64,000 nt of DNA from positions 1 to 64,000 of the forward strand of contig MARA01000024.1 of NCBI GenBank assembly GCA_001792895.1. Reading direction: 5' to 3'. This document shows, piece after piece, positions 1 through 21,656 of the stretch. Source of the stretch: Lentinus brumalis. Lineage: Eukaryota; Basidiomycota; Agaricomycetes; Polyporales; Polyporaceae. Both the position numbers and the translations under genes were made by a program. Positions within the stretch are counted from its first letter, which is position 1. Every line of letters starts with the position of its first letter. Below the pieces are notes generated by a model, which was given only the letters and a program-made list of their open reading frames with translations, searched no databases and was not told the origin of the DNA.

Positions 1-3000
1 TCTGAGGGCGTTGTGAGGTCAGCGAAGGGTATGTAGCCACGGAAGTGAATCAAGAAGTCTGGTCCAATATGAGCAGACCATCAAGACGTGCGTACGAGCG
101 GGCGGCCGCTCGCGGAGCACTTCTGAGGGGTCTGCGCACGATGCGCGGAGGTTGCATGGCAGAGATCGAGTCTCGGGAGCGGGCGACCGCTCGAAAGCAT
201 ACGTCGCACGAGCGCAGCCGGTGAGATGACCGACGGGCAGACCATCAACAAGTCGCACGTACGAGCGGGCGACCCTCGCGAGCACCTCTGAGGGCTCTGC
301 GCACGATGCACGGAGGTTGCATGCAGAGATCGAGTCTCGGAGCGGGCGACCGCTCGAAAGCATACGTCGCACGGCGCAGCCGGTGAGATGACCGACGAGC
401 AGACCATCAACAAGTCGCACGTACGAGCGGGCGACGCTCGCGAGCACCTCTGAGGGCTCTGCGCACGATGCACGGAGGTTGCATGGCAGAGATCGAGTCT
501 CGGGAGCGGGCGACCGCTCGAAAGCATACGTCGCACGAGCGCAGCCGGTGAGATGACCGACGAGCAGACCATCAACAAGACGTGCGTACGAGCGGGCGGC
601 CGCTCGCGAGCACTTCTGAGGGCTCTGCGCATGAAGGACGGAGGTTGCATGGCAGAGATCGAGTCTCGGGAGCGGGCGACCGCTCGAAAGCATACGTCGC
701 ACGAGCGCAGCCGGTGAGATGACCGACGAGCAGACCATCAACAAGACGTGCGTACGAGCGGGCGGCCGCTCGCGAGCACTTCTGAACGCCCTGCGCACTA
801 CACACGGAGGGTTCCGCCACCAAACCGAAGACAGGCCACAATCAAAAGATGAGTACTTACCAAAGTGCGGGAGACCGTATGTGAGCTCCTGAGAGCGCTT
901 CGACACCACGAGCGGCATATATCCGGACGGGGGGCCAGCGGCCACTGGGAGAGCTCGACAAATGGTGCGGTTCTTGTCTCGCCGCCGATGACCAGACCAG
1001 GCCAGAACGCGGGAAAGCCATTGTCGAGAATGCCGCGGGTGACCCACATGTGCCACATCAGATTTCTATTGAGGACCTTGCTGCGCCTGTGTGCGCGAAA
1101 TTGAGGCAGCGCTCGGCCACAGAGGTGAGCTCGACGTAGACAGGATCAGGACGGCCGTTCTCAGCAGGATTCATAAGGTTTGGCTTGACACGCAATGTCC
1201 AGACTCGGTCGAGGAGGCGTGATTGGGTACGTCGTCCACTCCAGGATGCGAGGGTAGACCTGTGAGATGCCGCGCGCAGTCAGCATCATCCACGCAGATC
1301 AAAAGTAAGTGGTGCGTCGTACCGCTGGTTTGAAGATTACCGTCGAGGAACGGAGCGCGTTGTTGACCTCAGGGCTGAAGAAGATCTTGCGGAGCTTCAT
1401 GAGAACGTGCTCGTAGAAACCGCCGCCAGAACGATACTCAGGCTTGATGCGCGCGATGTGGAAGATGAAGTTGTTCTCAAAGCGGAGGGCGTTCTTGTTG
1501 GCATGGTCCTCAGCGGTGCGCATCTGGCGGGCGAGGCGTTCATGGGGCAGCTGCGCAGACGCATAGCCCAACGTATCGAGAGCGGTCTTTTTGGTGGTGG
1601 CGTGCGGTGCCCAAGCACCGGCGGTAGCACAGTGAGCGGCCCGCGCTGCGCGATGTGAGTGCGGGCCTTGTCTCGGACGTGATGGGCGACATTGTTGTAT
1701 GCCTGGGACTTGAAGCCCTCAATGCAGAGGGGCCCGTCCGCAGTGACGCCTATGTCGCGGGCGAGACGGCGCAAGGGACGCAGGAGAGGCTTGATGATTC
1801 CGTCCGCCTGCCACTGACCGATGTTCTTGGAGAAGAACTGGGGGTAGGTGAAGATGGGTGTCATGGGCTCAGACGGGTCCCCAAGGATGTCGGCGATGAA
1901 GTCCTCGTCCTGGAGATCCCTCTCCCCGTCGTCGAGCTCAGGGTCCTGAAGCGGGATGATCGAGGACTCTTGAAAGAGGGGGAGGACCTTGTTGAGATCC
2001 TGGAGCAAGCCGCAGGGGTGTGTCCGGGTCGCGAAACCTGTCTCTGCGGAGGATTGGAAGTCCGTCCTCGGAAGATGGGGATCTCGCGACCGTCACCGTC
2101 GAGGAGGTCGTAGTTTTCCAAGTCCTCGATGAGCTCGCGCGTGTTCGGATCGGCGGTCGTGTATACATGTGTGTAGCGATCGAGGATGCGCTGGGGGTCG
2201 ATAGGCTCGAAGCCGCTTGCCTCAATAGCCTACAGTCAGGATGCGTGTGGTGCAATTGATATGAGAGCATATGTATGAGATGCAGGTGTTAACACGCACT
2301 GGGTATGCACAGCATAAGCCATGTGAATGCGGAGGATGTTGTTGAAGTCGATCATGTCGTTCCAAGTATCGCGATCGGCCTCGAAGGTAGCTGGGGCACA
2401 GATTTTGATGTTTTGGCCATACTTGGCGAGGATGGCAACGGGCTCAGCGTCGATGAACTCTGGGACTCTGTACGAGTCCGGTGCTCCCTGCCACCATTCG
2501 TCGTAATGCTCCTTGATCGCACGGTCGAGGTTCCGAAGAGTCTCGGTAGTGAACTGCCAGATGGGATTGTCGCTGACGAAACGAGTGAGCATACATGACG
2601 TGCAACAAATGTGGAATGGGGAGAATAGCGGGCGACCGCTCACAAGGCATCTTCTGCCACGGGTCAGCCGCTATTAGTACTCGACAATCCATCTGGAGCG
2701 GGCAACCGCTTATGCGGTGTCGTCTGGCGACCTGTCGCACGCTCATGGTGATATGTCGTCTGGAGCGGGCGACCGCTCAGAGCGACACTGATCCATGCGC
2801 TTGCTGTGATCCCAGGGTCACGGTGAGCGGTCGTACGCTCACAATAGTGGGATGTGTCGTTCGGAGCGGGCGACCGCTCAGAGCGACACGTTGTCCGGAG
2901 CGGGCGACCGCTCATCCATGCGCTTGCTATCATCCAAGGGTCACGGTGAGCGGTCGTACGCTCACAATATTGGGATGTATCGTCCGGAGCGGGCGACCGC

Positions 3001-4308
3001 TCAGAGCGACACGTTGTCCGGAGCGGGCGACCGCTCATCCATGCGCTTGCTATCATCCAAGGGTCACGGTGAGCGGTCGTACGCTCACAATATTGGGATG
3101 TATCGTCCGGAGCGGGCGACCGCTCATCGTCAATATCCCTTGTGGTTACCCAAGGGTTAGGGTGAGCGACGAGAGTCAAGACACGCGCCTGCCTCTGATT
3201 GTGCGCGGTAGCAATGGGCGGGCGTCGCAACGACATGGGCAAGACCACATGCGGGAAATGGCAGGACTCACAAGATGTTGGTTTGCAACCGCCATTCATA
3301 CTCCTTCGCGACGTCGGGATACTCTTCCGTCATGTATACCGTACCATAGCCAGCCTTGACGAGCATGTAGGTGATCATGGAGATGGTAATGCGTGCCACA
3401 ACAGAACTCATCGTCGTGGGCACGCGCGTGTGGCGGACGGTCCGGGTCTGCGGCAAAGGCGTCGACAGGCATGAGCGCGATGAACACATCAGCCTGCATC
3501 GGAGCCTGGCCAATGTATAACATCCGGTGGTCGGGCAGGAAACCAAAGACGCGCCGGTCGCCCTTGAACGTCCAATGTCTGCGGTCGAAGCGCATCGTGA
3601 ACGACCAGTCCGGTTTGTCCACTGGCGGCAACACAGCACCGAAGCCGAGCTCCTTCGGGACACGTATGTCGCAGTCCCAGCGCACCTGCACGCCAGAAAG
3701 GGCACAGGGAGCGAGAAGCACGGGTGGGATGAGACACAGAGATGGTAACAGAGGTAGCATCATGTACACACCTCGCTCAGCTTCCAGTAGATCTTGGGAT
3801 CATTGGCGGCGTACAAGTAGCGGCTGTCGACCTTGAGAAGGTTCTTGCGCTGCAGGAGCGAGAGAGCCCTCTCTTGGTTGCGGGAGTTGAAGTTCCGCTC
3901 AAGATCGGAGAGGAGGACGGTTCTGGTCGGCATCTCGACATACCTCTGCGCCAACTCGTCAAAGTGAGCGTCCGCGACGAGATGGCCGCGGGTGACCTCC
4001 TCCTGCGAGACACTGTCCTCGGTCACCATGGTCGGCGGGACGAAGCTGATGTTGAACGGCTCGCGGAGAGGCCCGTCTTCCTCGTCATCGGTGTACGCCG
4101 CCGCGCCGAGGGGCTCGTCGAGTTCGCTATTGAGAGAGGGGGAGGGGTACGATGAGGACGGAGTGCGCAAAGCAGGACAGTGGCCAGATAGATAGATGCC
4201 CTCAGACACGTACTTTACGTCTTCTTCCGGCTGTTCATCTTGTTCGAAGGACGGCTCCTCTTGAGAAAACGTCGGTTGATCATCGTAGAAGGCGAAGTTG
4301 GTGTCCAT
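1..4308 (-). CDS. Large multi-exon gene of unknown function, 3' end beyond the left edge
   Basis: I do not recognise the product. The start ATG is at 4308 and exon 1 (4308-3772, 179 codons) encodes an acidic, Ser/Pro-rich N-terminus. Splice joins whose phases agree are 3771-3686 (86 nt), 3271-2573 (699 nt, phase 2), 2310-2230 (81 nt), 2037-2000 (38 nt) and 860-59 (802 nt, phase 1). After the last join the frame stays open to the window edge, reading FLIHFRGYIPFADLTTPS. Two further frame changes, near 3395-3470 and 1580-1625, need either very short introns or indels. The central part is ordinary globular-looking sequence (for example DNPIWQFTTETLRNLDRAIK) with no motif I can name. The two giant introns hold palindrome arrays. 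Its neighbour at 4763-11479 is on the same strand with the same intron habit, so the two may belong to one accessory module. Confidence 0.6.
59..860 (-). repeat. Intron-borne palindrome array, about 180-bp unit
   Basis: Direct repeats of roughly 180 bp run about four and a half times. Each carries GAGCGGGCGACCGCTC-type palindromes (core also GGCG) joined by unique spacer such as gcagccggtgagatgaccg. The array fills an 802-nt intron: donor GTAAGT at 860 and acceptor CCAG ending at 59 on the minus strand. The upstream exon ends in phase 1 and the downstream exon supplies the two bases needed, keeping the frame open. Confidence 0.85.
2573..3271 (-). repeat. Intron-borne palindrome array in the first large gene
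   Basis: A 699-nt intron (donor GTGAGT at 3271, acceptor GTCAG ending at 2573 on the minus strand, phase 2 on both sides) contains about ten GAGCGGGCGACCGCTC or GAGCGGTCGTACGCTC palindromes. They sit in a direct repeat of about 120 bp, the clearest copies being near 2870-2990 and 2990-3110. Frame continuity across the removed segment supports true splicing. Confidence 0.85.
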
Positions 4309-4429
4309 CGCGAGCAGCAGGAGATATCGCGAGCGGCGGGAGATGGAGATAGAATGCTGGAGGGAGGGGACGACAAGTTGGGGAGTTAGGGTAAGGGTGG
4401 GAGGGGACCGCAGACGACTTTTGACCACG

Positions 4430-4762
4430 CAGCAATGATTTATGCGACCCCAAGGCAGCGGTAGGCTAGAAAGAGCGGATCAGAGGGCTTCAAACGTTCA
4501 AGCAGCGGGAACGCTATTTGGTTGTGCGATCGGGGTGTGTCATTTCAGATGAGTCATCATTTAAAGGGCGAGAGACAATTGCATTCAATTATGGCGAGGA
4601 GAGATATACAGGAACGAGTAGGAGTGGTACATGGGCAGGACTATGCGACGGGAGGGAGGGAAGGATATGCGATACAAGTACAATGAGGAAGCGCGACATT
4701 CAGCGAACGACAAACAGACCGGCGGGCACAGGAGCGCGGAAGGAGAGACGGGGACAAAGAAC
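4430..4762. other. Intergenic gap between the two large minus-strand genes
   Basis: No convincing coding sequence. It holds the 5' flank of the gene starting at 4308 and the 3' flank of the gene ending at 4763. A CATAAATC string near 4440 (minus strand) is a weak TATA candidate about 130 bp before the ATG at 4308. Confidence 0.5.
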
Positions 4763-7700
4763 TCAACCGATCATCGCGTCAGTGTCGTCGTCCTTAACCA
4801 TCGCGGCATTTGCCTTGGACTTCGCGCCGGGCTGAGGACGTTGACGAGTCCTCGCCGCGACAGGCTGCGTCGAGCTGGCCGCGCCAGAGCCAGTCTTGAG
4901 GTCCTTCTTCAGGACCTTGACCGCCTTATCTTCGGGCTCTGCTGTACTTGTCGCGGCACGCTTGCGAGTAATGCGGGCGGTGCCTTGGTTGTCGTCCTTC
5001 TGAGCGTGCGAGACCGGCGGGGTGACCACCATGGAACTGACGTCTGTACAATCATTGCGTGAGCTTCAATGTCGGACAGAAGGTAGTGGAGCGTGGGTGA
5101 GGATGTGTTCGAGCGGTCGACCGCTCGCGAGCATCAGCTGTCGGACAGAAGGTAGCGGATCATGCTCGCGAGCGGACGACCGCTCGCTAGCTCGCAGCGG
5201 CAGATACCGTCTGAGCGGTCGACCGCTCGCTAGCTCGCAGCGGCAGATACCGTCTGAGCGGTCGACCGCTCACGAGCATCCATTGTCGGACAACAGGTAG
5301 TGGATCGTGGGTGAGGATGCTCGCGAGCGGTCGACCGCTCGCTAGCTCGCAGCGGCAGGTACCGTCTGAGCGGTCGACCGCTCGCGAGCATCTTAGCGGC
5401 CGCACGTCATGTTGAGCGGTCGACCGCTCGAAGGCAATGTCGGGATTGCATCCACCAGAAGGGGACCATGCGAGCGGTCGACCGCTCGTTCTGACGTGCG
5501 GCTGCGATCCCCTCTTGAGCGGTCGACCGCTCCGAGAATACATTTGCTGCGTCTTCACCTGTCATTTGCGTAAGACAATATGAGAGAACTCACTATGAGC
5601 GAGGTCCTCAACGCCCTGCTCAGCATCGTCGTCGAGGTCCACCATGCGGTCGGTCCTCCCGTGCTTCTTGAGACGTCGCAAAGGCTGCGGCGCGTCGTCC
5701 TCCGCATCGTCGCCGTTGTCGTCGGGGACCTCAGAGGTAGGGGGGCCGTCTTCGGGCTCGGAAGGACCCTTGTCATCGACCTCCATAGCGTCGCGAGCGG
5801 GCGACCGCTCGCGAGGGACATCCTCGTCAGGCTGAGCCTCCTCAGGGGGAACGGACTTCGCTTCGTCCGTGGCGTGCTCCGAGGCACTCTGCGTTGCCGG
5901 GGCGGTGGAAACCTCGTCGGTGTGCTCACCGCTGGGCTCATCGAGCGTGATGGGACCGACAGAGGCCCAGAGCTTCTCTTCATCGGCATCCTCCCCCTCT
6001 GCGTCGAGGTCCTCGCCGTGAGCCGACTGGTCGTTCTTGCCGTGATTGCCCTGAGGAGGCTCGTCGCTGCTTGATTGGAGCTGGTCTTCGCCGTTCTCAT
6101 CGCCCTCGTCCTCGTCCCCATCCCCGTCCTCGTCGTCGTCCCCGTCGTCGTCCGCGTCCGCGTCGTCGTCCGCGTTCGTCGTCGTCGTCGTCGTCCTCCT
6201 CATCGTCGCCCTCGTCCTTGTCCTTGTCAGCGCCCTCGGACGCGCTCTGGTTGTCAGACTCCCGATCGGCCGGGTCGGTGGGCTCTCCGTGAGTCGCCGT
6301 GCTCGCACCGCTGGGTCCGCCCATCTCCATTTCGACATCCTCGACGTCCGAACGATGTTCCTCCTTCGCGAGCGCCGCCGCCGCGAGTGCGCGCGCAGGA
6401 ACGCTGGCCGCATCGAGCTTCATCGCCCCCACGGGCCCGTTCCAGCCGACGAGGTCTTGCGGGAGAATGTCCGTGTCCTTGTACGGGCCCAAGAGCTGCG
6501 GCTTGGGATAACCAAGCCTCTCCAATGCGCCCTCGTACCGGTCCATCTCCTTCCGCGACCGCGCGGTCCTCTCGGCTTGGATCTGCATATAATTGAGCGA
6601 CGGGTACGCGGAGCTGTCCGCCTTCGCCGCCATAGTCGGGAACTCCTCGTAGAAATGGTCCCGCCGTCCAGACGGCTCGACGTACGGAGCCGTTGTCCCG
6701 CTTGCGCGGGCCACCTGCCGGTTCGCGTTCGTCCAGAGTGTCTGAAAGCACGCGATGCGCAGTGAGTACAAAGCATAGTACATCCAGACGCCGCACTCAC
6801 CTTGATCAAGTCTTCGAAAGAGGTGAGCACCTCGCGGTCGAGGACCACCTGTTTCTTGGCAGCGGTGGGGCCGAAATGCGCGACCTTGGACGACCTGACG
6901 GTCTTGATGATGGTCGAGATCTCCGCGGAGAACGTAGCCCGCATGGTGGCGGACTCGAGGAATGTGTCGAGGTCGAGGTCGAGCACATCCACCGAGACAG
7001 GCAGCGGCGACGCTTGGGTCTCGTACACTTTCCCGAGCTCAGCGTCCCAGTACTTCCAGACACTGACGCGCCGCCCCTCGCGCCCGATGGACTCGAATGC
7101 ACCAATCGCGCTCAGGTGTTTCGCTGCGGCCGCCCGCAGGCTTTTGAACGCCAGAGAGGCGTAGAATGGCGCGACGTGCTCAAGCTGGTACGCCCACCTG
7201 ACCGGAAGCTCGACGCTCAGAGCCTTCAACGCCTTGTCCTCTCCGGCGCTGTTTGCCTTCTTCGCCACGAACGATCGGAACTCGGGAGCGGACGTGGTTA
7301 CGAGCATGCGGAGCGCGGGCAGCTTGTCGAGCTGGGATGTAGTGAACCCCCCGTTCTCCGCATCTGCGTCCTTCCGCATGACGGTCAGAGCCTCCTTCAT
7401 CGCCTGTAGTACGCCTCGCAGGTCGGCTTCCACGGATCGTCCTCCGAGTTGAAGTCGATGAATGCGCCGAAGGGGGACAACTTCGCGTTGACGCCGCCCT
7501 TCCCCCACACAGCTTTGCCGATCTTCTCGAAGATGAACCGCCGAGTACCACGCAGGGCATCGGAGCCAGTTGTTGCCATTGCGTGGACCATGCGGCCTAT
7601 GTCGGTAAGCTTGATGTGCTCGCGGAGCACAAACGACCACCACTGTTGGGCCGTCAGTGTATGAACTGTGAGCGTGCAGAAGGTATCCGATCAGACTTAC

Positions 7701-10700
7701 CCAGACTGAGACACCAGGGACTTGTCGGAAAAGTGTCGCATCTGACAGGAGGGCGTTGATTTGGTCACCGAGGAGGTTATGGGGATTGCCGCCGTGGAGC
7801 GGATCGAGCATGAACATGAGCTGCAGGGAGAGGTGTTAGCACAGCTGTTCACAGTGTAACTCCGCGGCCGAGCGGGCGACCGCTCGAAGTATGTATTCAC
7901 CCTTCGTGCCCTATCTCTTGGCACGAGCGGGCGACCGCTCGCACCGTAACTCTAGGGCCGAGCGGGCGACCGCTCGGAGCACGTCCATGGCATGAGCGGG
8001 CGACCGCTCGCACTGTAACTCTGGGCCCGAGCGGGCGACCGCTCGGAGCACGTCCATGGCATGAGCGGGCGACCGCTCGCACCGTAACTCTAGGGCCGAG
8101 CGGGCGACCGCTCGGAGCACGTCCATGGCATGAGCGGGCGACCGCTCGCACTGTAACTCTGGGCCGAGCGGGCGACCGCTCGGAGCACGTCCATGGCATG
8201 AGCGGGCGACCGCTCGCACCGTAACTCTAGGGCCGAGCGGGCGACCGCTCGGAGCACGTCCATGGCATGAGCGGGCGACCGCTCGCACTGTAACTCTGGG
8301 CCGAGCGGGCGACCGCTCGGAGCACGTCCATGGCATGAGCGGGCGACCGCTCGCACCGTAACTCTAGGGCCGAGCGGGCGACCGCTCGGAGCACGTCCAT
8401 GGCATGAGCGGGCGACCGCTCGCACCGTAACTCTAGGGCCGAGCGGGCGACCGCTCGGAGCACGTCCATGGCATGAGCGGGCGACCGCTCGCACTGTAAC
8501 TCTGGGCCCGAGCGGGCGACCGCTCGGAGCACGTCCATGGCATGAGCGGGCGACCGCTCGCACCATAACTCTAGGGCCGAGCGGGCGACCGCTCGGAGCA
8601 CGTCCATGGCATGAGCGGGCGACCGCTCGCACCGTAACTCTAGGGCCGAGCGGGCGACCGCTCGGAGCACGTCCATGGCATGAGCGGGCGACCGCTCGCA
8701 CCGTAACTCTGGGCCGAGCGGGCGACCGCTCGGAGCACGTCCATGGCATGAGCGGGCGACCGCTCGCACCGTAACTCTAGGGCCGAGCGGGCGACCGCTC
8801 GGAGCACGTCCATGGCATGAGCGGGCGACCGCTCGCACTGTAACTCTGGGCCGAGCGGGCGACCGCTCGGAGCACATCCATGGCTGATGACTGCGGGCGA
8901 GCGGGCGACCGCTCGCATCGTAACCTCGCATCGTAACCTCTTCGAACGAGCGGGCGGCCGCTCACGCTGCGTCTCGGCGATCGAACAGTCCGATGGACAA
9001 AGGCAATACCACTCACCGTCGCGATTCCGTCGTCTGCCGCGGTCAACTTCTCCTTCAGGGCGTCCATGAACGTCTTCGTCGGGACCGGGAGCGCGAAGGC
9101 CAGCCCGAGCCGCTGCAGCTCGAACACCCACTCCAGCTTCTGGGGTGCGTTCTCCAGCGCACGAATGGACTCCGAGTCCGGAGTCGTCGCCCGCAGCTTG
9201 TCGAGGGTCGCCGTCCAGTACTGCGCACACGACCGCCGGATCGAGGCCTGATAGCCACGCAGCGCGTCCATCCACAGAGGCGAGTCGCTGTGCGCCATGT
9301 GCGCAAGCCGGCCTTGAGGCACGACCGGTACGCCGCGTCGATCGTGTCCAGGAGCTCCTTCGGGAACACCTCTTGCACAACTCGTGCGGCCCGCACCGTC
9401 GCCATGACCTCCTCGTACCTATTCTGCGCCTGCCGACGGGCACCCACCGCGGTCTTCGACACCGCAGGGAGAATCGCCTCCTGGCCATTCTGCAACGCCT
9501 CCATCACCGCCGTCCGTTCCTCGGCCTCCTGGATGCTCGCGATCTGGAACGCATACACCTCGCTGCCGAGCGCAGAGGCCTGGGGATTCACCAGCTTCCC
9601 CTGCTGGTTCACCTCCGGCCACTCACAGTCACTCGCGATGAAATGCAGCGCTGCCAGCCCTGAACGCAATATCTCCATGTGAAGCTGACACAAGCAGGTC
9701 AGCACTCGCATCCGCATACACACAAGCCAGAAAAAAGCACGCACCCAGTCACCGTAATCGCCGTCGTCCAGGTAGTCCCCAAATGCCTTCGTGTTGACCA
9801 CGGCTTCGCTCGTGTAGTATGGGAACACACTCATGAGCGACATGAGGTTCCAGGTGGACGGATTATGGAACGGCTTCATGAAGGAGGAATACTTCCGACG
9901 CGTTTTCGGGTCGCCCATCACATCCTCCAGGAGTCGCGAACTCCACCACCCATTGCCGGGGACGAGTGTCTCCACCGGGATATTGTGCGTCTTGGCAAGC
10001 TGCGCTGCCGCGGCCTTCAGCTCGTACACCCACCGCCATGTTCGCTCTACCATCGTCTCCGAGAGCTGGGGATCGATCTTGTTCATGGAGAGATGGCGGA
10101 GGGTTGGCTCCTGCAGCTTATCTATAACATAGCGCATCATCAGTCGTGTGATCTCGTGAAGTACAATCTAAAACAGCCGCAGTGTATGGTCGGAGAAAGC
10201 GGTCACGCCCTCGCGCTCGCCACGCCTCTCGAGCGGGCGACCGCTCACATTGGCGAGGCCGCTCCTACTGACCGAGCCTCGCGAGCGGTCGACCGCTCGA
10301 ATCGCAACATCGCACACGCAGCGGGCGATGCTGGCGACACCTTTTGAGCGGTCGACCGCTCACACTGACCACGCCTCGCGACGGTCGCCGCCGCTCGACC
10401 GAGTCGAGCGGGCGATGCTGGCGACACCTTTTGAGCGGTCGACCGCTCGAACTCGGTCGAGCGGTCGACCGCTCACACTGACCACGCCTCGCGAGCGGTC
10501 GACCGCTCGGACTCGGTCGAGCGGGCGACCGCTCACACTGACCACGCCTCTCGAGCGGTCGACCGCTCGCACTACAACAGCACCGGTCGAGCGGTCGACC
10601 GCTCGATATAAAACAATCTCATACATGCAACACTCACCAATGTCATACAGCTCCACCGTCCACGTCCCTATTTCGCCGAGGAGGCTCTTGATCTTCGCGA

Positions 10701-11479
10701 GCTTGTCCGCCATGTCCGCGAGCTCCGATCGCAGCGCGCCCTCCGCCTCCTTCTTCACGGCCGCCTTGCCCTTCCTGGTGACGTCGCCGCCGTCGCCGAT
10801 GTCGTTCAGCTTCTTCTGCTTCTTCGAGAGCGCCGTCTTCAGCTTCGCCGCCTCAACTTCAAGCTGCTTCTTGAAGCCCTGCACGGCCGCATGTCGGTGC
10901 TGCCCGCCGAGAACGGTGACCTCGGCGCCTTGGACCTTCGACGTCCACTGCACGGCCTTCAAGTCGTTGTCGTCGGCATTCTGAACAAGACAACCGGGGT
11001 CCACCCAGTCCACCTTGACAGCAACCGGCATCGGGTGGTCCTCGTGCTGGATGCCCATGCCGCGGAAACTGTGCACAAGGTCGGAGACGGCCTTCTTGTT
11101 CAAAGCTCGGTTGTTGTATTGACCGAACGACAGCTGGACCCCGGGGTTGAGGAGGTTAACAGTGGCGTACCCAAGTCGCGCCGCTGCCATCTCCTTCTTC
11201 AAAGCCAACTCCTTGCTCTGCTTCTCCGCCATCAGCGCCATCCGCTCAAGGGGAGGCGCAGCCGCGAGCTGTCCAATCCCATCCCTCAGCTCATCCGCAC
11301 TCACACGCGATGCTGCATACAGTACTCACCTCATCGCGACCGGCAGGAGATATATCTCCAGATGCTCGCGGCGCGTCGCCCGCCGCCCCATCCTTCGTTT
11401 TACCAACCCCCGCCGCGGCCTGGGTCTTCGTCGCCTTCGCCTTCTTGCCAGCCTTGCTTGCCTTTGTTGCAGTACTCAT
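4763..11479 (-). CDS. Large multi-exon protein with ParB/sulfiredoxin-like segment and acidic tail
   Basis: Predicted at about 1,400 residues from eight exons. Start ATG at 11479; exon 1 (11479-11330, 50 codons) is Lys/Ala-rich. Exon 2 (about 11300-10638) has NNRALNKKAVSDLVHSFRGM followed about 50 residues later by VTVLGGQHRHAAV. This resembles the N-x-R..L..S...G and G-x-x-R motifs of the ParB/Srx fold, then a Lys/Glu coiled-coil stretch. Phase-checked introns: 10637-10122, 9744-9685, 9016-7821, 7700-7643, 6800-6742 and 5593-5044. Exon 7 ends in a long Asp/Glu-rich tail and exon 8 (5043-4763) is basic with possible nuclear signals. Frame breaks near 9300-9340, 7430 and 6180 need micro-introns or indels. 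The enzymatic or DNA-binding role is unknown; the ParB-like call is by motif only. Three introns carry palindrome arrays. Confidence 0.65.
5044..5593 (-). repeat. Palindrome array in last intron of the ParB-like gene
   Basis: A 550-nt intron (donor GTGAGT at 5593, acceptor TACAG ending at 5044, phase 1 on both sides) contains about ten copies of the perfect 16-bp palindrome GAGCGGTCGACCGCTC. Many are extended by CGCGAG/CTCGCG flanks and separated by spacers such as gctagctcgcagcggcag. Joining the exons keeps the frame into the C-terminal exon. Confidence 0.85.
5791..5814. repeat. Single palindrome inside coding sequence
   Basis: A near-perfect 24-bp palindrome built on GAGCGGGCGACCGCTC with TCGC/GCGA extensions lies inside the acidic-tail exon. 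It is read in frame as RERSPARD on the minus strand. It is the one array-type palindrome I found in a predicted exon rather than an intron or intergenic DNA. Confidence 0.8.
7821..9016 (-). repeat. Largest intron array: 68/69-bp dimer of palindromes
   Basis: A 1196-nt intron of the ParB-like gene. Donor GTGAGT is at 9016; the acceptor CTGCAG ends at 7821 with a CTAAC branch site just before it; both sides are phase 0. Between about 7870 and 8960 lie roughly thirteen tandem 68/69-bp units. Each has two GAGCGGGCGACCGCTC palindromes with two different spacers (one around cgcaccgtaactctaggg, the other ggagcacgtccatggca), so palindromes recur about every 34 bp. Confidence 0.9.
10122..10637 (-). 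repeat. Palindrome array in second intron of the ParB-like gene
   Basis: A 516-nt intron (donor GTGAGT at 10637, acceptor TTATAG ending at 10122, phase 1 on both sides) carries about ten GAGCGGTCGACCGCTC or GAGCGGGCGACCGCTC copies between 10230 and 10600. Spacers such as acactgaccacgcctcgc recur. The join reads ..YDI-DKLQEPTLRH, so the frame is preserved. Confidence 0.85.
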
Positions 11480-11990
11480 CGTGCCAGTAAGAGAGGAGTG
11501 GAGGAGTGTCTGTAGTAGGGGAGTGCGGTCGCTCAGAGGGTGATCGCGGGGAGAGAGAGAGAGAGAGTCGCTCCCCCCGCTCTATCTATCTCTGCCTGCC
11601 TGCGGCCTCATGCCTGCATCGCGGCCCATCGATCGGAACAATCCCAACCTTGTCCTTTTCCGTGCAGGGATCATCTATTCTCTCGAGCACTGCGATTCCC
11701 TTTTTCGTTCGCCATCACGCTCATCCATCTCCTCATCTCCTCATCTCCGGTGTTTCGCACTTGGACGCGACATAATCTGTACCCCACCGCCCATCCCTGC
11801 ACGTCCTTCCCTCTGAAGCGTTCAGCCCGTGATGTCCTCTAACCACACTTCCACAGATGATCGCGTTCCTGATTGATCGACATAAACTGTCACACTCGAT
11901 CACGAATCATCATGACGTACTTGCCACGTGGCTATGCCGCCCACGTGCATCCCTCAAGTGTCAAATCACTATCTCCTCCTGCGCGCGGTC
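11480..11990. other. Upstream region of the ParB-like gene
   Basis: No gene seen. It is pyrimidine-rich on one strand, with a short GA run near 11550-11565, and would hold the minus-strand promoter. I see no clear TATA element. The next palindrome array starts near 11985. Confidence 0.45.
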
Positions 11991-12430
11991 GCCCGATCGC
12001 GACGCGTTGTCTCTGCGTCTCCAATAGTGAACGGTCGGCCGCCCGCAGGCCTCTTTCTGCGTATGTTCGATAGCGAGCGGTCGCCCGCTCGCGGGCATCT
12101 TTCTGCGTATGTTCGATAGCGAGCGGTCGCCGCTCGCGGGCATCTTTCTGCGTATGTTCGATAGCGAGCGGTCGGCCGCTCGCGGCATCTTTGCGTATGT
12201 TCGATAGCGAGCGGTCGGCCGCTCGCGGGCATCTTTCTGCGTATGTTCGATAGCGAGCGGTCGCCGCTCGCGGGCATCTTTCTGCGTATGTTCGATAGCG
12301 AGCGGTCGGCCGCTCGCGGGCATCTTGCTGCGTATGTTCGATAGCGAGCGGTTGGCCGCTCGCGGGCATCTTTCTGCTTATGTTCGATAGCGAGCGGTCG
12401 GCCGCTCGCGGGCATCTTTCTGCTGTTGTC
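11985..12430. repeat. Intergenic palindrome array, about 46-bp unit
   Basis: About eight tandem units of the form palindrome + GGGCATCTTTCTGCGTATG + TTCGATAGC. The cores here are mainly GGTCGGCC and GGTCGCC, unlike the GGGCGACC core of the 8-kb array. Two units lack one base of the core, which breaks perfect symmetry. No open reading frame crosses the array convincingly. Confidence 0.85.
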
Positions 12431-12556
12431 CGCTCGTAACCTCCTGTCGATAGTCACACACAGTTTGCGGTCACAGGTGTATTTATGCCTATCTCCACTG
12501 TAAGCGCCCACTGTGCGTGACTATCGACAGGAGATTACGAGCGGACAACAGCAGAA
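12420..12556. repeat. Inverted repeat at the end of the 12-kb array
   Basis: About 45 bp at 12420-12463 (tgctgttgtccgctcgtaac, then cctcctgtcgatagtcac) recurs in inverted orientation at 12508-12556 with few mismatches, around a spacer of roughly 45 bp. It could form a hairpin. A degenerate array fragment (gtgagcggcggaccactcac) follows. Confidence 0.75.
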
Positions 12557-12925
12557 AGAGGCCCGTGAGCGGCGGACCACTCACTATCGCACACAAGAGG
12601 CCCACAAGCGGCGGAATACTTTGCATTGGCTGATCATAAGTTTCCACCTGACTCTGGTTCCTGACCTCCTGTACTTCTGTCTTGGCTACTGCTCTTCGGA
12701 CTTTTGGACTTTGCCATATAAGCCTCCTTGTAGCGACACTTAGTTCTCAGTTCTAATATCTCGTTACGCTCCCTGTTACAACTGTGAGATCGATCTGTTC
12801 TGTTTGCTCTCCTCTCATAGTCTGATCTTTCCAACCAGACTTCTGATTCCTGACCTCCAACCTCTCACTCTGACTTCTGCTTAACCTCGCACCTCTGGCT
12901 TGACTTTCTTTCCACTTGGTCTTGT
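12557..12925. other. Non-coding stretch left of the hAT-type element
   Basis: AT-richer than its surroundings, with many short pyrimidine tracts. I see no supported gene or repeat unit beyond the array fragment at its left end. Confidence 0.5.
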
Positions 12926-12933
12926 CTCTTGCT
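12926..12933. repeat. Target-site duplication, left copy
   Basis: CTCTTGCT directly precedes the left inverted terminus. The identical octamer directly follows the right terminus at 13698-13705. Confidence 0.88.
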
Positions 12934-13697
12934 TAGTGATGTGCGAGCCCGGCTCGGCTGCAAAGCCGCGGCTACGGCTCGGCCTGGAGAGCTACGGCCT
13001 GCTCGAACTGCAGGCCGGGCTCTTGAAGACGGCTCGAGCTCAGCTCGGCCTGAGCCAGAGCCTGCAGGTGGTGGGTGCTACTTACCTCCTGCCCGCACCT
13101 CTGCACTGCCAGAGTGCAAAGACCCATAATGAGACGTGTCCAACAACGTGTTTCGTTGCACTCCGCCTCTGCACCTGCCCTCCCGCGCTGCTTGACACCA
13201 GGAAGAGCAAGAAGACGTGTCCAATGACGCATCCGTCGTCGACCTCAGGCTGACGGTTCTTGCCCCGGCCTCCTGCGCTGCAAGAGCATGAAGAACGATG
13301 AGAGAACACGTCCAGTGACACTTCTCGTCGCCATCTGCTTTGCCCTGCCCTCTGACCTTTGACCTAGCGTGCACTGCATGCTCTCAGTCCCGAGTAATTG
13401 ATACACAAGAGTGACAAGACTACTTATGAGTCTTCCTGATGAAGAAAATGTGAGTACTGCAGTGCTAACGTATGTTTAAAACCCACATAAATCGCAGTAT
13501 CATTAGTTCAGTGATCAATATTGCTCGCCCTATGCCAGCGTCATTGAGCCCAAGCTCGAGAGCCCAGCTCGAGCTCATTGTGGTCGTGTGCCGAGCCGTC
13601 AGGCTCCCCAGGCGCCTCGAAAGCTCAGCTTGGCTCGGCCTGAATACGGCCGGCTTGGGGAGCCTGATGGCTCAAGACCGGGCGTTGCACATCACTA
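12934..13697. mobile_element. Non-autonomous hAT-type element (MITE), 764 bp
   Basis: The ends are perfect 11-bp terminal inverted repeats TAGTGATGTGC / GCACATCACTA. They are flanked by an exact 8-bp direct repeat CTCTTGCT at 12926-12933 and 13698-13705. An 8-bp target duplication with TAGTG ends is characteristic of the hAT superfamily. Subterminal zones on both sides are dense in GGCTCGG/CCGAGCC motifs, as is usual where hAT transposases bind. There is no transposase reading frame inside, so it would need an enzyme from elsewhere. The perfect TIRs and duplication suggest fairly recent insertion. Confidence 0.88.
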
Positions 13698-13705
13698 CTC
13701 TTGCT

Positions 13706-14320
13706 TTTCTTCTTACTTGTTGCTTGCTCCTGTTATGAATTCCGGATCTCTTGTCCGTCTTACATTGAAGACACCCACGCATCCTCAAGGTGTTGATCCA
13801 TAGCTTTGCTGAATCCTTCTTCCTCCGCACACATCCTTCCGGACTTTGTAAGTCCGTAACTCCCAACTTCACCTGGACTTTGTCCCGGTGTGGACAGTCT
13901 CAACAGTATATCAGCCTGTGATGTAACAAGCTCCACCATACACGTGGAGCCAAGGTGTCTCCGGGTGATAGAACACATAATATATAGACTGGGGTGTACC
14001 TTATGTGTTCATATCTCTGAGGAGTGGCGCTCCGAGGTCCCAGGACCAGCCAGAAGATAGGTGCTTAGGGGCCCATTATCCCTACACATATGGGAAACTT
14101 CTGACACGGTCTCTCTATGTTGTTGCATCACTGCCAGGAGCACAGAGTGCGACTGTGTGCATGTCTGCCTCTGACTCAGATAACTCTTGTATGTAATGCT
14201 ACACCCGAAGTAAGGTACCATAATTGAACCACGCAGCTGACGGCTCCCAGCGGCGGCTCCTGTTGGGCGCTTACATGTGCCGAGGGGATATCCTGGGTGA
14301 CCCTATACTCGAGTGCTCAT
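13706..14320. other. Non-coding stretch between hAT-type element and 212-bp repeats
   Basis: No supported gene: open frames are short and lack splice or start context. No palindromes and no tandem units are visible. Confidence 0.5.
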
Positions 14321-15375
14321 ATTGTATCGTGAACAATATGAGCGGTCGACCGCTCGCACACCTCGCTGTGAGCGGTCGACCGCTCGTACCCTACTGTCCG
14401 CCCTCGCCCGCTCGTACCTCGCTGTGAGCGGTAGGCCGCTCGCTGCGATGTTCTAGGCGAGAACTGCCTGCTGCCGTGCACTGTCCAACTGCTGATCATG
14501 GAAAACGAAGGGACATCTGGTGAATGCATCATATTGTATCGTGAACAATATGAGCGGTCGACCGCTCGCACACCTCGCTGTGAGCGGTCGACCGCTCGTA
14601 CCCTGCTGTCCGCCCTCGCCCGCTCGTACCTCGCTGTGAGCGGTCGGCCGCTCGCTGCGATGTTCTAGGCGAGAACTGCCTGCTGCCGTGCACTGTCCAA
14701 CTGCTGATCATGGAAAACGAAGGGACATCTGGTGAATGCATCATATTGTATCGTGAACAATATGAGCGGTCGACCGCTCGCACACCTCGCTGTGAGCGGT
14801 CGACCGCTCGTACCCTGCTGTCCGCCCCCCGCTCGTACCTCGCTGTGAGCGGTCGGCCGCTCGCTGCGATGTTCTAGGCGAGAACTGCCTGCTGCCGTGC
14901 ACTGTCCAACTGCTGATCATGGAAAACGAAGGGACATCTGGTGAATGCATCATATTGTATCGTGAACAATATGAGCGGTCGACCGCTCGCACACCTCGCT
15001 GTGAGCGGTCGACCGCTCGTACCCTGCTGTCCGCCCTCGCCCGCTCGTACCTCGCTGTGAGCGGTCGGCCGCTCGCTGCGATGTTCTAGGCGAGAACTGC
15101 CTGCTGCCGTGCACTGTCCAACTGCTGATCATGGAAAACCAAGGGACATCTGGTGAATGCATCATATTGTATCGTGAACAATATGAGCGGTCGACCGCTC
15201 GCACACCTCGCTGTGAGCGGTCGACCGCTCGTACCCTGCTGTCCGCCCTCGCCCGCTCGTACCTCGCTGTGAGCGGTCGGCCGCTCGCTGCGATGTTCTA
15301 GGCGAGAACTGCCTGCTGCCGTGCACTGTCCAACTGCTGATCATGGAAAACCAAGGGACATCTGGTGAATGCAGG
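14321..15375. repeat. Five tandem 212-bp units carrying palindromes
   Basis: The unit starts around catattgtatcgtgaacaat and contains two GAGCGGTCGACCGCTC copies, a half palindrome, one GAGCGGTCGGCCGCTC copy, and a unique 100-bp tail ending gggacatctggtgaatgc. Starts recur at about 14317, 14529, 14741, 14950 and 15162 (212, 212, 209, 212 bp). Copies are nearly identical, so the expansion is recent. Part of the last unit is also the outer end of the long inverted repeat to its right. Confidence 0.9.
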
Positions 15376-15725
15376 CCGCGAGCGGTCGACCGCTCACCAC
15401 GGGTGCGTCTGCCGGACATAGCGTTGGACGTGCCGGGATGCAGGCTAGTACACCGGACCTGCAACTCCAAGCGTACAATCCAAGCGGCCGACCGCTCTCG
15501 AATATGTGTTGGTGCGGTATCTCCTGTCGCTCGCGACGCGCCGCCGAGCATGTTCTGAGCACGCCCTGATACAAGACTGATGTGTTCAACGCTTAGTGTA
15601 TCGGCACGCCGCCGGACACGTCTTGAGTGCAAATACCATACTTATGCATCCCGTGCTACGTTCAGCGACCCCCATTACCCTGCCGTGAGCGGCCGACGCT
15701 CGTGGGTGCTCACGGTATTGTATAT

Positions 15726-15808
15726 CAGCCCTCCTGGCTTAGTTGGTAGACCACTTAGAAGCTGTGCCGCTGCACGTCGTGGGCGCAGGTTCGATTCCTG
15801 CAGGGCTG
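15726..15808 (+). tRNA. tRNA-like sequence (left arm), isotype not assigned
   Basis: It contains an A box TGGCTTAGTTGG and a perfect B box GGTTCGATTCC, a paired T arm (GCAGG/CCTGC) and a fully paired acceptor (CAGCCCT/AGGGCTG). The D arm is short and the anticodon arm does not fold canonically in 83 nt. It may be a tRNA-derived (SINE-like) relic or a tRNA with an unusual intron. Its inverted copy is at 16078-16159. Confidence 0.45.
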
Positions 15809-15923
15809 TATTCGTCTTGGGTATCTCGGTTTTTGTCGCCTGGCGACGCGATGAGGAACGGTGGCCCCTACTGGCATCGAGCGGCAGAATCGAACCAGAA
15901 AAAAGTGTTTAGGCGACCATAAG

Positions 15924-15997
15924 AGCCCCACAGGAATCGAACCTGCGACCGCTCGATGCGTTCGCAGAGCGGCTTACCCACTAAGCCAGTAGGGCCC
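15924..15997 (-). tRNA. tRNA-like sequence in the spacer of the inverted repeat
   Basis: About 74 nt, the normal tRNA length. The acceptor pairs fully if G-U pairs are allowed (GGGCCCT/GGGGCTC), the D stem TGGC/GCCG pairs, and A and B boxes (TGGCTTAGTGG, GGTTCGATTCC) are intact. The anticodon stem is not canonical; the best pairing is CGCTC/GAGCG around a 12-nt loop. I therefore do not assign an amino acid. It is related to, but distinct from, the two arm copies. Confidence 0.5.
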
Positions 15998-16077
15998 ACA
16001 ACGGCATCAGTAGAACCCCGCGTCACCCCACTCATCGCGTCGCCAGGCCACAAAAAAGCTGATTCCCAAGCCGAATA

Positions 16078-16159
16078 CAGCCCTGCAGGAATCGAACCTG
16101 CGACCACGACGTGCAGCGGCACAGCTTCTAAGTGGTCTACCAACTAAGCCAGGAGGCTG
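16078..16159 (-). tRNA. tRNA-like sequence (right arm), mirror copy
   Basis: Reverse-complement copy of the tRNA-like sequence at 15726-15808. It lacks one base in the 5' acceptor strand (CAGCCTCC rather than CAGCCCTCC), which weakens the acceptor stem. A and B boxes are retained. Confidence 0.45.
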
Positions 16160-16629
16160 ATATACAATACCGTGAGCACCCACGAGCGGTCGGCCGCTCA
16201 CGGCAGGGTAATGGGGTCGCTGAACGTAGCACGGGATGCATAAGTATGGTATTTGCACTCAAGACGTGTCCGGCGGCGTGCCGATACACTAAGCGTTGAA
16301 CACATCAGTCTTGTATCAGGGCGTGCTCAGAACATGCTCGGCGGCGCGTCGCGAGCGACAGGAGATACCGCACCAACACATATTCGAGAGCGGTCGGCCG
16401 CTTGGATTGTACGCTTGGAGTTGCAGGTCCGGTGTACTAGCCTGCATCCCGGCACGTCCAACGCTATGTCCGGCAGACGCACCCGTGGTGAGCGGTCGAC
16501 CGCTCGCGGCCTGCATTCACCAGATGTCCCTTGGTTTTCCATGATCAGCAGTTGGACAGTGCACGGCAGCAGGCAGTTCTCGCCTAGAACATCGCAGCGA
16601 GCGGCCGACCGCTCACAGCGAGGCACGAG

Positions 16630-17345
16630 CTGCCAACCGCTCATATGGCACGGTACGAGCTGTCGACCGCTCACGGTACGGTACGAGCGGTCGACCGCTC
16701 ATAGCAGTGTACGAGCAGTCGAATGCTCACGACAAGGGGTACGGTACAAGCGGGCAGCCGCTCACGGTACGGTACGAGCGGTCGACCGCTCACGGTACGG
16801 TACGGTCGACCACTCACGACAAGGTACGAGCGGTCGACCGCTCACGGTACAGTACGGTCGGCCACTGAAGGTACATAACGGGCGGTCGGCCGCTCACGGT
16901 ACGGTACGAGCGGTCGTCCGCTCGTAGCAGGCGGTCAGCCGCGCACGGTACGGTACGAGCGGTCAACCGCTCACGGTACGGTACGGTCGACCACTCACGA
17001 CAAGGTACGAGCGGTCGACCGCTCACGGTACAGTACGGTCGACCACTCAAGGTACAGTACGGGCGATCGTCCGCTCACGGTACGGTACGAGCGGTCGTCC
17101 GCTCACAGCAGGCGGTCGGCCGCTCACGACGAGGTACGAGCGGTCGTCCGCTCACGACGAGGTACGAGCGGTCGTCCGCTCACGACGAGGTACGAGCGGT
17201 CGTCCGCTCACGATGAGGTACGAGCGGTCAACCGCTCACGACAGCAGGTGGTCGGCCGCTTGTAACGTGCCGTGGATGGCCGACTGCTCACCATACATTC
17301 TGCAACCGTTTACCTTCTACACAGTTCTGAGCGGTTGCCGCTCGT
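16630..17345. repeat. Irregular palindrome field, right edge of the palindrome domain
   Basis: Some 25 palindromes and degenerate versions are spaced by GGTACG, CACGACAAGGTAC or similar. Cores vary among GGTCGACC, GGTCGGCC, GGTCGTCC and GGTCAACC. A run of identical GAGCGGTCGTCCGCTC units with spacer acgacgaggtac lies at about 17120-17220. The last recognisable copy is near 17330-17343; I find none further right in the window. Confidence 0.85.
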
Positions 17346-17471
17346 TCGCTACTTATACCAATCACACCCACCTCCCTGCCACCAACCGCTCCTCCGCCGC
17401 AATTTATGCTCTCCAGCAACTCGACCGCTCGCAACGTACATTCGGCCCAATAATGCTCACCCTTACCTCCC

Positions 17472-17483
17472 CTAACCCTAAGG
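17472..17483. repeat. Two telomere-type hexamers
   Basis: CCCTAACCCTAA, two units of the common fungal telomere repeat in C-strand orientation, followed by a G run. It sits at the junction between the palindrome domain and the 79-bp satellite. Two units can arise by chance. Confidence 0.5.
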
Positions 17484-17499
17484 GGGTTACAGAAATACC

Positions 17500-20400
17500 T
17501 ATCAATTTTCTCACTCCTTGGGCCCAAAACGCACTCCTGTGTCCCGGCTTGTCCTGTGTCGTGGCTGAGTACGTCTGTGACCTTGTTCGTATATTTTCTC
17601 ACTCGTGGTGCCATAAACTGACCCGGCTTGTCCTGTGTCGTGGCTGAGGGCGGCTTTAACCTCGTTCGTATATTTTCTCACTCGTGGTGCCCTAAACTGA
17701 CCCAGCTTGTCCTGTGTCGTGGCTGAGTACGTCTGTGACCTCGTTCGTATATTTTCTCACTCGTGGTGCCCTAAACTGACCCGGCTTGTCCTGTGTCGTG
17801 GCTGAGTACGTCTGTGACCTCGTTCGTATATTTTCTCACTCCTTGGGCCCAAAACGCACTCCTGTGTCCCGGCTTCTTCTGTGTCGTGGCTGAGTACGTC
17901 TGTGACCTTGTTCGTATATTTTCTCACTCGTGGTGCCATAAACTGACCCGGCTTGTCCTGTGTCGTGGCTGAGTACGTCTGTGACCTCGTTCGTATATTT
18001 TCTCACTCCTTGGGCCCAAAACGCACTCCTGTGTCCCGGCTTCTTCTGTGTCGTGGCTGAGTACGTCTGTGACCTTGTTCGTATATTTTCTCACTCGTGG
18101 TGCCCTAAACTGACCCGGCTAGTCCTGTGTCGTGGCTGAGTACCTCTGTAACCTCGTTCGTATATTTTCTCACTCGTGGTGCCCTAAACTGACCCAGCTT
18201 GTCCTGTGTCGTGGCTGAGGGCGGCTTTAACCTCGTTCGTATATTTTCTCACTCGTGGTGCCATAAACTGACCCGGCTTTTTCTGTGTCGTGGCTGAGTA
18301 CCTCTGTGACCTCGTTCGTATATTTTCTCACTCCTTGGGCCCAAAACGCACTCCTGTGTCCCGGCTTCTTCTGTGTCGTGGCTGAGTACCTCTGTAACCT
18401 CGTTCGTATATTTTCTCACTCGTGGTGCCCTAAACTGACCCAGCTTGTCCTGTGTCGTGGCTGAGGGCGGCTTTAACCTCGTTCATATATTTTCTCACTC
18501 GTGGTGCCATAAACTGACCCGGCTTGTCCTGTGTCGTGGCTGAGTACGTCTGTGACCTCGTTCGTATATTTTCTCACTCGTGGTGCCCTAAACTGACCCG
18601 GCTTGTCCTGTGTCATGGCTGAGTACGTCTGTGACCTCGTTCGTATATTTTCTCACTCCTTGGGCCCGAAACGCACTCCTGTGTCCCGGCTTCTTCTGTG
18701 TCGTGGCTGAGTACGTCTGTGACCTTGTTCGTATATTTTCTCACTCGTGGTGCCATAAACTGACCCGGCTTGTCCTGTGTCGTGGCTGAGTACGTCTGTG
18801 ACCTCGTTCGTATATTTTCTCACTCCTTGGGCCCAAAACGCACTCCTGTGTCCCGGCTTCTTCTGTGTCGTGGCTGAGTACGTCTGTGACCTTGTTCGTA
18901 TATTTTCTCACTCGTGGTGCCCTAAACTGACCCGGCTAGTCCTGTGTCGTGGCTGAGTACCTCTGTAACCTCGTTCGTATATTTTCTCACTCGTGGTGCC
19001 CTAAACTGACCCAGCTTGTCCTGTGTCGTGGCTGAGGCGGCTTTAACCTCGTTCGTATATTTTCTCACTCGTGGTGCCATAAACTGACCCGGCTTTTTCT
19101 GTGTCGTGGCTGAGTACGTCTGTGACCTCGTTCGTATATTTTCTCACTCCTTGGGCCCAAAACGCACTCCTGTGTCCCGGCTTCTTCTGTGTCGTGGCTG
19201 AGTACGTCTGTGACCTTGTTCGTATATTTTCTCACTCGTGGTGCCCTAAACTGACCCAGCTTGTCCTGTGTCGTGGCTGAGGGCGGCTTTAACCTCGTTC
19301 GTATATTTTCTCACTCGTGGTGCCATAAACTGACCCAGCTTGTCCTGTGTCGTGGCTGAGTACGTCTGTGACCTCGTTCGTATATTTTCTCACTCGTGGT
19401 GCCATAAACTGACCCGGCTTCTTCTGTGTCGTGGCTGAGTACCTCTGTGACCTCGTTCGTATATTTTCTCACTCGTGGTGCCCTAAACTGACCCAGCTTG
19501 TCCTGTGTCGTGGCTGAGTACGTCTGTGACCTCGTTCGTATATTTTCTCACTCCTTGGGCCCAAAACGCACTCCTGTGTCCCGGCTTGTCCTGTGTCGTG
19601 GCTGAGTACGTCTGTGACCTTGTTCGTATATTTTCTCACTCCTTGGGCCCAAAACGCACTCCTGTGTCCCGGCTTGTCCTGTGTCGTGGCTGAGTACGTC
19701 TGTGACCTTGTTCGTATATTTTCTCACTCGTGGTGCCATAAACTGACCCGGCTTGTCCTGTGTCGTGGCTGAGGGCGGCTTTAACCTCGTTCGTATATTT
19801 TCTCACTCGTGGTGCCATAAACTGACCCGGCTTGTCCTGTGTCGTGGCTGAGGGCGGCTTTAACCTCGTTCGTATATTTTCTCACTCGTGGTGCCCTAAA
19901 CTGACCCAGCTTGTCCTGTGTCGTGGCTGAGTACGTCTGTGACCTCGTTCGTATATTTTCTCACTCGTGGTGCCCTAAACTGACCCGGCTTGTCCTGTGT
20001 CGTGGCTGAGTACGTCTGTGACCTCGTTCGTATATTTTCTCACTCCTTGGGCCCAAAACGCACTCCTGTGTCCCGGCTTCTTCTGTGTCGTGGCTGAGTA
20101 CGTCTGTGACCTTGTTCGTATATTTTCTCACTCGTGGTGCCATAAACTGACCCGGCTTGTCCTGTGTCGTGGCTGAGGGCGGCTTTAACCTCGTTCGTAT
20201 ATTTTCTCACTCGTGGTGCCATAAACTGACCCGGCTTCTTCTGTGTCGTGGCTGAGTACGTCTGTGACCTCGTTCGTATATTTTCTCACTCGTGGTGCCC
20301 TAAACTGACCCGGCTTGTCCTGTGTCGTGGCTGAGTACCTCTGTGACCTCGTTCGTATATTTTCTCACTCCTTGGGCCCAAAACGCACTCCTGTGTCCCG

Positions 20401-21303: not shown

Positions 21304-21648
21304 AGCCACGGGCGGAAGCTGCGGGTTGTGCCAAGGGCAACAACCTGACAAAACGGGTGCGCCGGATTTGAGGAAGCAGGGAATTCATGTGTACGGTGAG
21401 AAGTATGCAGGTTGCAGCAGGGAATTCATGTTTACGGTGAGAAGTATGTAGTTTATGTCACAAAAGCCACGGAAAACGGAGGTTAGTGTGCAACGAGGTA
21501 GGTGCTCATTGGATGATGTTTGTGCATGGACTTCGAACTCGCTGGCGGCCATCACAGCTGCTCGGAGGGTCGCTACAGTCGTATACATATCCCGGAGCTC
21601 GCGCTGGCTGCAGTTGCCTGTTCGAGCGACCTCGCGCAGCGTCACAGG

Positions 21649-21656
21649 CCTATATC
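21649..21656 (+). promoter_or_regulatory. TATA-type element, copy 1
   Basis: The CCTATATC string lies about 80 bp before the ATG at 21737. It is repeated identically before the second copy (about 22761), so it was duplicated with the gene. Confidence 0.5.

Follow-up and report, generated by a model that had tools for sequence, protein, structure and literature searches.

Palindrome-filled introns of Lentinus brumalis lie in a repeated and probably mobile block at chromosome ends

We analyzed the first 64,000 nt of a contig of the Lentinus brumalis genome (C54:1-64000, hereafter the window; assembly of 53.4 Mb in 136 contigs), in which two neighbouring genes, A and B, carry long introns filled with copies of the palindrome GAGCGGN4CCGCTC. 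Both genes were found to be cargo of a block that occupies positions 1-17506 of the window, with its plus strand running towards the chromosome interior. This part of the window is probably the chromosome-side portion of a giant mobile block located at chromosome ends, which faces the telomere in one way only and has an exact terminus.

Palindromic arrays within and between genes A and B

Gene A (1-4308, minus strand) and gene B (4763-11479, minus strand) were delimited from their reading frames. The modelled exons of gene A lie at 4308-4212, 4130-3769, 3685-3272, 2572-2303, 2229-1341, 1285-861 and from 58 onwards, and in other copies the gene continues past the point at which the window starts; those of gene B lie at 11479-11330, 11289-10638, 10121-9745, 9684-9017, 7820-7701, 7642-6801, 6741-5594 and 5043-4763. 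Several frame breaks in the window copy of gene A look like small assembly indels, judging from the near-identical exons found elsewhere. For neither gene was a homologue present among about 8000 scored candidates, and a Pfam scan of exon pieces from both returned only two sub-threshold matches, to families of unknown function, and no helicase family.

Five introns are packed with the palindrome, as an earlier note on this DNA had reported: in gene A, 59-860 (a 166-bp array with 7 exact sites) and 2573-3271 (6 sites); in gene B, 5044-5593 (9 sites), 7821-9016 (a 69-bp array with 31 sites) and 10122-10637 (9 sites). The eight other modelled introns of the two genes measure 40-83 nt, which confirms that the remaining introns are short. 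Read on the minus strand, all five long introns start with GTAAGT or GTGAGT and end with CAG or TAG. Four of them connect two long open frames in phase. At the fifth, 59-860, the joined frame is open over the 58 bases of exon that the window still contains; farther on, it meets a stop after about 41 codons in C75, C79 and C107 and continues in C50. The claim that all five can be removed with matching donor, acceptor and codon phase, which concerns predicted splicing, was therefore upheld for the splice sites of all five and for the phase of four, the frame downstream of 59-860 being less certain.

Exact matches to the motif were counted, with dinucleotide shuffles giving the expectation for the window and the reversed pattern serving as control for the genome. 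Across the 64 kb scanned, 99 palindromes were observed vs. 0.02 expected; all lie within the first 17.24 kb and none beyond, because the first 17.5 kb are one copy of the repeated chromosome-end block. Within the block part of the window, introns hold 62 palindromes in 4272 bp, exons 1 in 6753 bp (in frame in gene B, at 5795-5810) and intergenic DNA 36 in 6481 bp. By motif scan and repeat periods, the intergenic sites (12.07-17.24 kb) belong to a 46-bp array with 6 exact sites (12024-12423), to a stretch at 14317-15395 made up of a 212-bp array with three palindromes per unit (14317-15373) and one further site (15380-15395), and to an array that adjoins the block terminus (16598-17239).

Genome-wide, the palindrome was found 1459 times and the control pattern 13 times. 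Among the matches listed (100 rows, all on C21, together with 12 of 12, 100 of 111, 8 of 8 and 53 of 53), 272 of 273 partly overlapping rows lie at most about 50 kb from a contig end or on contigs shorter than 100 kb. The sole exception, C47:421861, whose centre is unusual, looks as if it matched by chance.

These counts bear on the proposal that the elements expanded almost only where splicing removes them, through either target choice or selection. Inside genes the proposal holds, with 62 intronic sites against 1 in an exon, but 36 of the 99 sites in the window are intergenic. Target choice for introns as the cause is not supported, in view of these intergenic arrays and, by our reading of the frames, of arrays located 3' of PHD-like genes farther out. 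The exon depletion is real and fits a tolerance of non-coding DNA.

Introner elements or miniature inverted-repeat transposable elements (MITEs), the nearest ideas named in the earlier note, inserted and then exapted as introns, would be in keeping with the finding that the long introns are those with arrays. However, the splice sites of all five lie in ordinary sequence outside the arrays, the repeat units differ among the five, and arrays are found between genes too; an origin of this kind is extremely improbable. Introner, MITE and intron-targeting readings were all dropped on the basis of array location, repeat units and the polarity of the block terminus.

RNA hairpins selected to shorten the effective intron length for splicing were also considered. 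Upon folding, four of the five introns were more stable than 12 shuffles each (z -5.4 to -12.8; -1.1 for the fifth), as such selection would predict, but the same exact motif fills the intergenic arrays and compensated changes between the two arms were absent (0 of 26, which is weak evidence). We consider this explanation very unlikely, and selection on hairpins or RNA structure was dropped as the main cause, the motif being equally exact between genes.

A repeated block with one polarity and an exact inner end

By blastn, window 1-17506 recurs, in full or as far as the contig retains it, on C38, C50, C59, C67, C75, C84 and C86. Identity is mostly 95-99%, falling to 83-85% over the final array of C38, C50, C84 and C86, and the matches end at 17506-17515; the telomere side of the window copy is cut by the start of C54. 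A 200-aa piece of gene B was found 12 times, on 11 contigs, every copy lying either close to a contig end or on a contig shorter than 100 kb. When matches covering at least half an exon were compared with the window, the exons of both genes in C38, C50, C59, C67, C75, C84, C86 and C107 showed 0-4 substitutions per exon and copy, the remaining differences being gaps; a C67 fragment with 12 mismatches was the exception. A separate gain of insertions by two ordinary neighbouring genes is not what the data show: both are cargo of a single block that recurs near many contig ends and already contains the arrays.

While the exons stay the same, the arrays gain and lose tandem units. The intron at 7821-9016 is 1196 nt long in the window, 828 in C75, 692 in C86, 684 in C38, 622 in C107, 484 in C67, 414 in C59 and 345 in C50 and C84, and varies between copies in roughly 69-bp steps. 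That at 10122-10637 measures 516 nt in the window and C59, 515 in C38, 456 in C67 and 429 in C50, C75, C84 and C86. Part of this variation could be assembly error.

On the telomere side, the continuation of the block in C75, C31, C79 and C107 holds PHD-like genes (PHD matches at E 0.0016-0.0031 in four pieces, below the Pfam cut-off) and palindrome arrays, which by our own reading of the frame translations lie 3' of these genes. The palindromic part spans 0.4-34 kb of C75. Farther out, two stretches were covered (C31 15562-20000 and C107 51401-61400), and neither yielded any palindromes. If C75:1-34375, which is without the inner terminus, is one unit, the block measures at least 34 kb. C79 starts with a (CCCTAA)n telomere, and its block matches begin 10.2 kb inside; the interval between the two (C79:301-10000) contains a tandem array at about 9.1-9.8 kb and open reading frames (ORFs) that presumably resemble KDZ-type transposase.

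On the chromosome side, the block stops at one exact position. Its last 22 bases (17485-17506, plus strand), ...GGTTACAGAAATACCTATCAAT, have 41 exact copies genome-wide, and a short telomeric-type tract, CCCTAACCCTAA (17470-17481, plus strand), is located about 25 nt before the block end. Copies end ...CCCTAACCCTAAGGGGGTTACAGAAATACCTATCAAT, with other DNA beyond: each of the 15 inspected termini joins different downstream sequence, including a satellite (window), a Cdc48 fragment (C84), the reverse transcriptase (RT) gene of a retroelement (C107) and other copies of the block. These 15 include C75:34775, a one-base variant, and C59:15352, which shares only about 27 bases upstream. Copies are also stacked. 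The C38 terminus is joined to a further copy of the same orientation, which begins at C75 coordinate 6934; that of C86 adjoins a copy beginning at window position ~16.38 kb. On 13 contigs longer than 100 kb, 25 of 25 termini lie on the plus strand near the contig start or on the minus strand near its end, at most 48 kb from it. The other 16, on five contigs shorter than 100 kb, show one orientation per contig, two of these contigs holding a single terminus only. Among the 41 genomic copies no inverted partner of the terminus was seen, each contig having one orientation.

Inner ends that are exact, outer ends that vary, a single polarity and stacked copies are what end-attachment would give, a pattern not readily produced by random insertion or recombination alone. 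Passive subtelomeric duplication, whereby an old chromosome end with palindromic minisatellites would have spread to other ends through break-induced replication and then been made uniform by gene conversion, without any transposition, was weighed against this reading. It would fit the near-identical exons on many ends and the array-length differences, which are typical of recombining subtelomeres. Further, Agaricus bisporus has subtelomeric RecQ genes, one group of 10 reportedly having identical proteins (PMC7473861). Such duplication, which we regard as unlikely, does not readily account for one identical inner base in front of 15 different flanks, or for short copies that end at that very base.

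Other features lie within the block or next to it. A perfect 418-nt inverted repeat has its left arm at 15255-15672 (plus strand) and its right arm at 16213-16630 (minus strand), with sequences resembling transfer RNA (tRNA) between the arms (15728-16158; sub-threshold Rfam tRNA); in C50, a ~110-bp (CCCTAA)n tract replaces part of the centre. The Rfam scan of the window gave nothing at gathering level, and sub-threshold Rfam matches from a separate scan were taken as palindrome artefacts. Directly after the block terminus, the window contains a 79-bp satellite of about 43 copies (17543-21016). A retroelement with RT and gag within C107:51401-61400, which we take to be DIRS-like, is cut exactly at a block terminus and gave no Pfam match; farther in, a gene shows weak SNF2/ResIII helicase matches.

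Deeper in the window, we found a 1.1-kb tandem duplication (21434-22534 and 22545-23647, 93% identical) and minisatellites that contain no exact palindrome (26655-28441, 113/144 bp; 49898-52019, 152 bp). ORFs located beyond the block (29842-30435 and 35879-36715) display, by eye, a PHD-like Cys/His pattern and resemble ORFs of the block. A 961-aa open frame (38586-41471) had no Pfam match and contains what we assume to be an Ulp1/C48-protease-like motif.

Constraint on the palindrome sequence

The 834 exact palindromes in the fetched DNA and the window correspond to 48 flank families. Of 96 half-sites, 2 have an A immediately before GAGCGG and 93 have C as the second base of the centre; genome-wide, AA precedes the motif 0 times, vs. 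1 and 2 times in two controls. Judged from these comparisons, the conserved motif is approximately YGAGCGGnCGnCCGCTCR, about 18 bp, which is longer than the 6-4-6 palindrome of the earlier note.

In 22 families with at least three distinct members, selected on their flanks only, 27 of 264 arm columns are polymorphic vs. 229 of 880 flank columns (odds ratio 0.32, p ~1e-8, an optimistic value as families share ancestry and some are neighbours). Per-base variation is 2.2% in the arms, 8.2% in the flanks and 6.2% in the centre, and variability is 2.5 to 3.7 times lower in arms than in flanks. Pairwise identities of arms and flanks (9080 ungapped pairs, 0.97 vs. 0.80) were not used, being inflated by shifted units and alignment anchoring, and neither were within-array variation rates, which included misaligned end units.

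Among near-matches with one change per arm, 0 of 26 were compensated (background included), vs. about 1.4 by chance. This weak test gives no sign that pairing as such is kept, and the findings argue for recognition of the DNA sequence. A two-fold symmetric site would most simply be that of a dimeric DNA-binding protein, and our best guess is that such a protein, perhaps of the zinc-cluster type, recognises the palindrome. Dimer sites of Zn2Cys6 (zinc-cluster) proteins such as Leu3 have a CGG-N4-CCG layout. The palindrome has the same CGGN4CCG core and two-fold symmetry; unlike those sites, it has a longer conserved core of about 18 bp and forms arrays near chromosome ends.

Conservation could also reflect recent copying rather than function, if the palindrome itself were a tiny mobile or hairpin-driven element that multiplies by template switching within arrays. 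One array unit does have an extra piece of about 22 nt that bears a palindrome and resembles its neighbour's flank, the arrays have many periods, and the stability of four of the five folded introns points the same way. Against this stand the conservation of the arms relative to the flanks in families chosen on flanks, the gap cases listed, none of which showed a clean empty site outside arrays, and, as weak evidence, the absence of compensated arm pairs (0 of 26), which hairpin-templated correction should produce. We find this origin doubtful and favour a sequence-constrained component of the larger block.

Penelope-like retroelements and the proposed attachment of the block

Retroelements with a Penelope-like RT are found at the same ends, at C50:19191-24656 and on C107 from 44401 or before to 49867. 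This RT had 391 homologues (E <= 0.001) among 7998 scored candidates; the best-scoring one is 59% identical over 99%, the named ones include Trametes, Armillaria, Mycena and Sanghuangporus, and several of those listed contain PF00078 or are annotated as reverse transcriptase domain proteins. Pfam support was weak: RVT_1 matched the C50 piece at E 4e-4, below the cut-off, and one of four rescanned homologues, and the intact 1185-aa frame of the C107 element gave nothing at E <= 0.1. A search of the PDB with the RT piece returned only a retron RT (E 0.97). The motifs in the C50 and C107 sequences are ones that we take to be those of Penelope. No GIY-YIG endonuclease domain was detected by Pfam in the C50 pieces or in the intact C107 frame; as Pfam missed the RT of that frame too, the negative is not a strong one.

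In the genome, eight rows of RT matches, which by our own count represent seven loci, lie on C50, C94, C21, C107 and C61, all either close to a contig end or on contigs shorter than 100 kb. The elements have direct repeats of 558-621 bp, and a hammerhead-like core, CTGATGAG...CGAAAC, has 11 genomic copies, with no Rfam match at E <= 1. Downstream of the C107 element lie C-rich telomeric repeats, after which come the block's final 53 bases. In C50, the 24.66-27.52 kb interval beyond the RT element matches window 14.1-17.5 kb over 206 bases at 94% and in further pieces at 71-78%. The block and the RT elements have therefore exchanged 3' sequence or share it.

Several known systems show part of this picture. 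Coprina are telomere-associated Penelope-like elements of basidiomycetes. Like them, the RT elements described here combine a Penelope-like RT with direct repeats, a possible hammerhead core and no detected endonuclease domain; they measure about 5.5 kb and are distinct from the block, which is far larger. In the HeT-A/TART arrays of Drosophila, polarity is uniform, inner ends are exact, outer truncation is variable and copies are stacked. All four properties recur in the block, but telomerase-type repeats exist here (C79) and no driver of the non-long-terminal-repeat (non-LTR) kind was shown. Subtelomeric RecQ helicase blocks include Y', UTAS and TLH, and subtelomeric RecQ genes are reported for Agaricus (PMC7473861). 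Near-identical gene copies at many ends are common to those blocks and to ours, but the scanned pieces of genes A and B belong to no helicase family, and an exact terminus with unrelated flanks sets our block apart.

The block also resembles the terminons of rotifers, which are described as giant endonuclease-deficient Penelope-like units, arranged head-to-tail at telomeres with reverse-complement telomeric repeats at the attached end (PMC6431247). It is likewise giant, head-to-tail, cut short on its telomere side, provided with a defined chromosome-facing end and a C-rich tract, and endowed with extra genes. For the block, we found both the telomere-facing polarity with an exact chromosome-side end (25 of 25 termini; 15 of 15 flanks) and the C-rich telomeric tract CCCTAACCCTAA at the attached end, whereas a Penelope-like RT in the same unit was not found, the eight matched rows lying elsewhere. 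The block also departs from terminons in that its two genes are antisense to the attachment polarity, its terminus runs about 25 bases past the telomeric tract and it is full of a conserved palindrome. By analogy, it may work like a terminon, perhaps with a borrowed RT; we do not class it as one because the window contig has no RT match. Within the fungi, Penelope-like elements are reported for A. bisporus at two chromosome ends lacking telomeres (PMC7473861).

In the scheme that we favour, a new copy would attach through its exact terminus to a chromosome end that has eroded or broken, a step that the RT of the Penelope-like elements may perform, and homologous exchange between ends would then spread and homogenise the remainder of the block. 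Such a two-step model, in which the RT attaches a short 3' piece and recombination copies in the rest, would explain both the identical exons and the exact ends. The palindromes would be internal, sequence-constrained minisatellites of the block, lying in introns of the cargo genes and between genes because such DNA tolerates them, and their arrays would change in length through gain and loss of units.

A number of observations weigh against this scheme. No RT match is present on C54, although the outer part of the block is incomplete there, and genes A and B are antisense to the polarity expected of an attached RNA copy, which makes a movement of 34 kb hard to account for. Only one true telomere was seen (C79), near-identical copies could arise from recombination alone, and contig ends may be unpolished or misassembled, which would affect array lengths. 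Regarding the palindrome, the family at C38 8788 has 8 of 12 arm columns variable, probably through an indel, and the absence of compensated arm changes is a weak argument given the small number expected by chance.

Among the open-access papers listed for fungal palindromic minisatellites, subtelomeric repeats and Coprina, no direct precedent was found. As a wider and less probable proposal, the block might be a novel type of telomere element in fungi: a giant unit with orphan genes and a PHD-type family that would attach by an exact end to broken or eroded chromosome ends through borrowed Penelope-like machinery, be marked along its whole length by palindromes for a dedicated protein, and thereby build and control the host's subtelomeres. 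Elements of this giant, telomere-attaching sort are documented in rotifers. To find one in a fungus, equipped with cargo genes yet lacking its own RT, would broaden the kind and show how non-autonomous giants could spread. It would also offer a natural test of chromosome healing, in which each different flank records one attachment. Finally, the palindromes provide a tangible lead: a motif of about 18 bp that occurs more than 1000 times, lies near contig ends in 272 of 273 listed places and is conserved despite drift suggests that subtelomeres are recognised by some factor.

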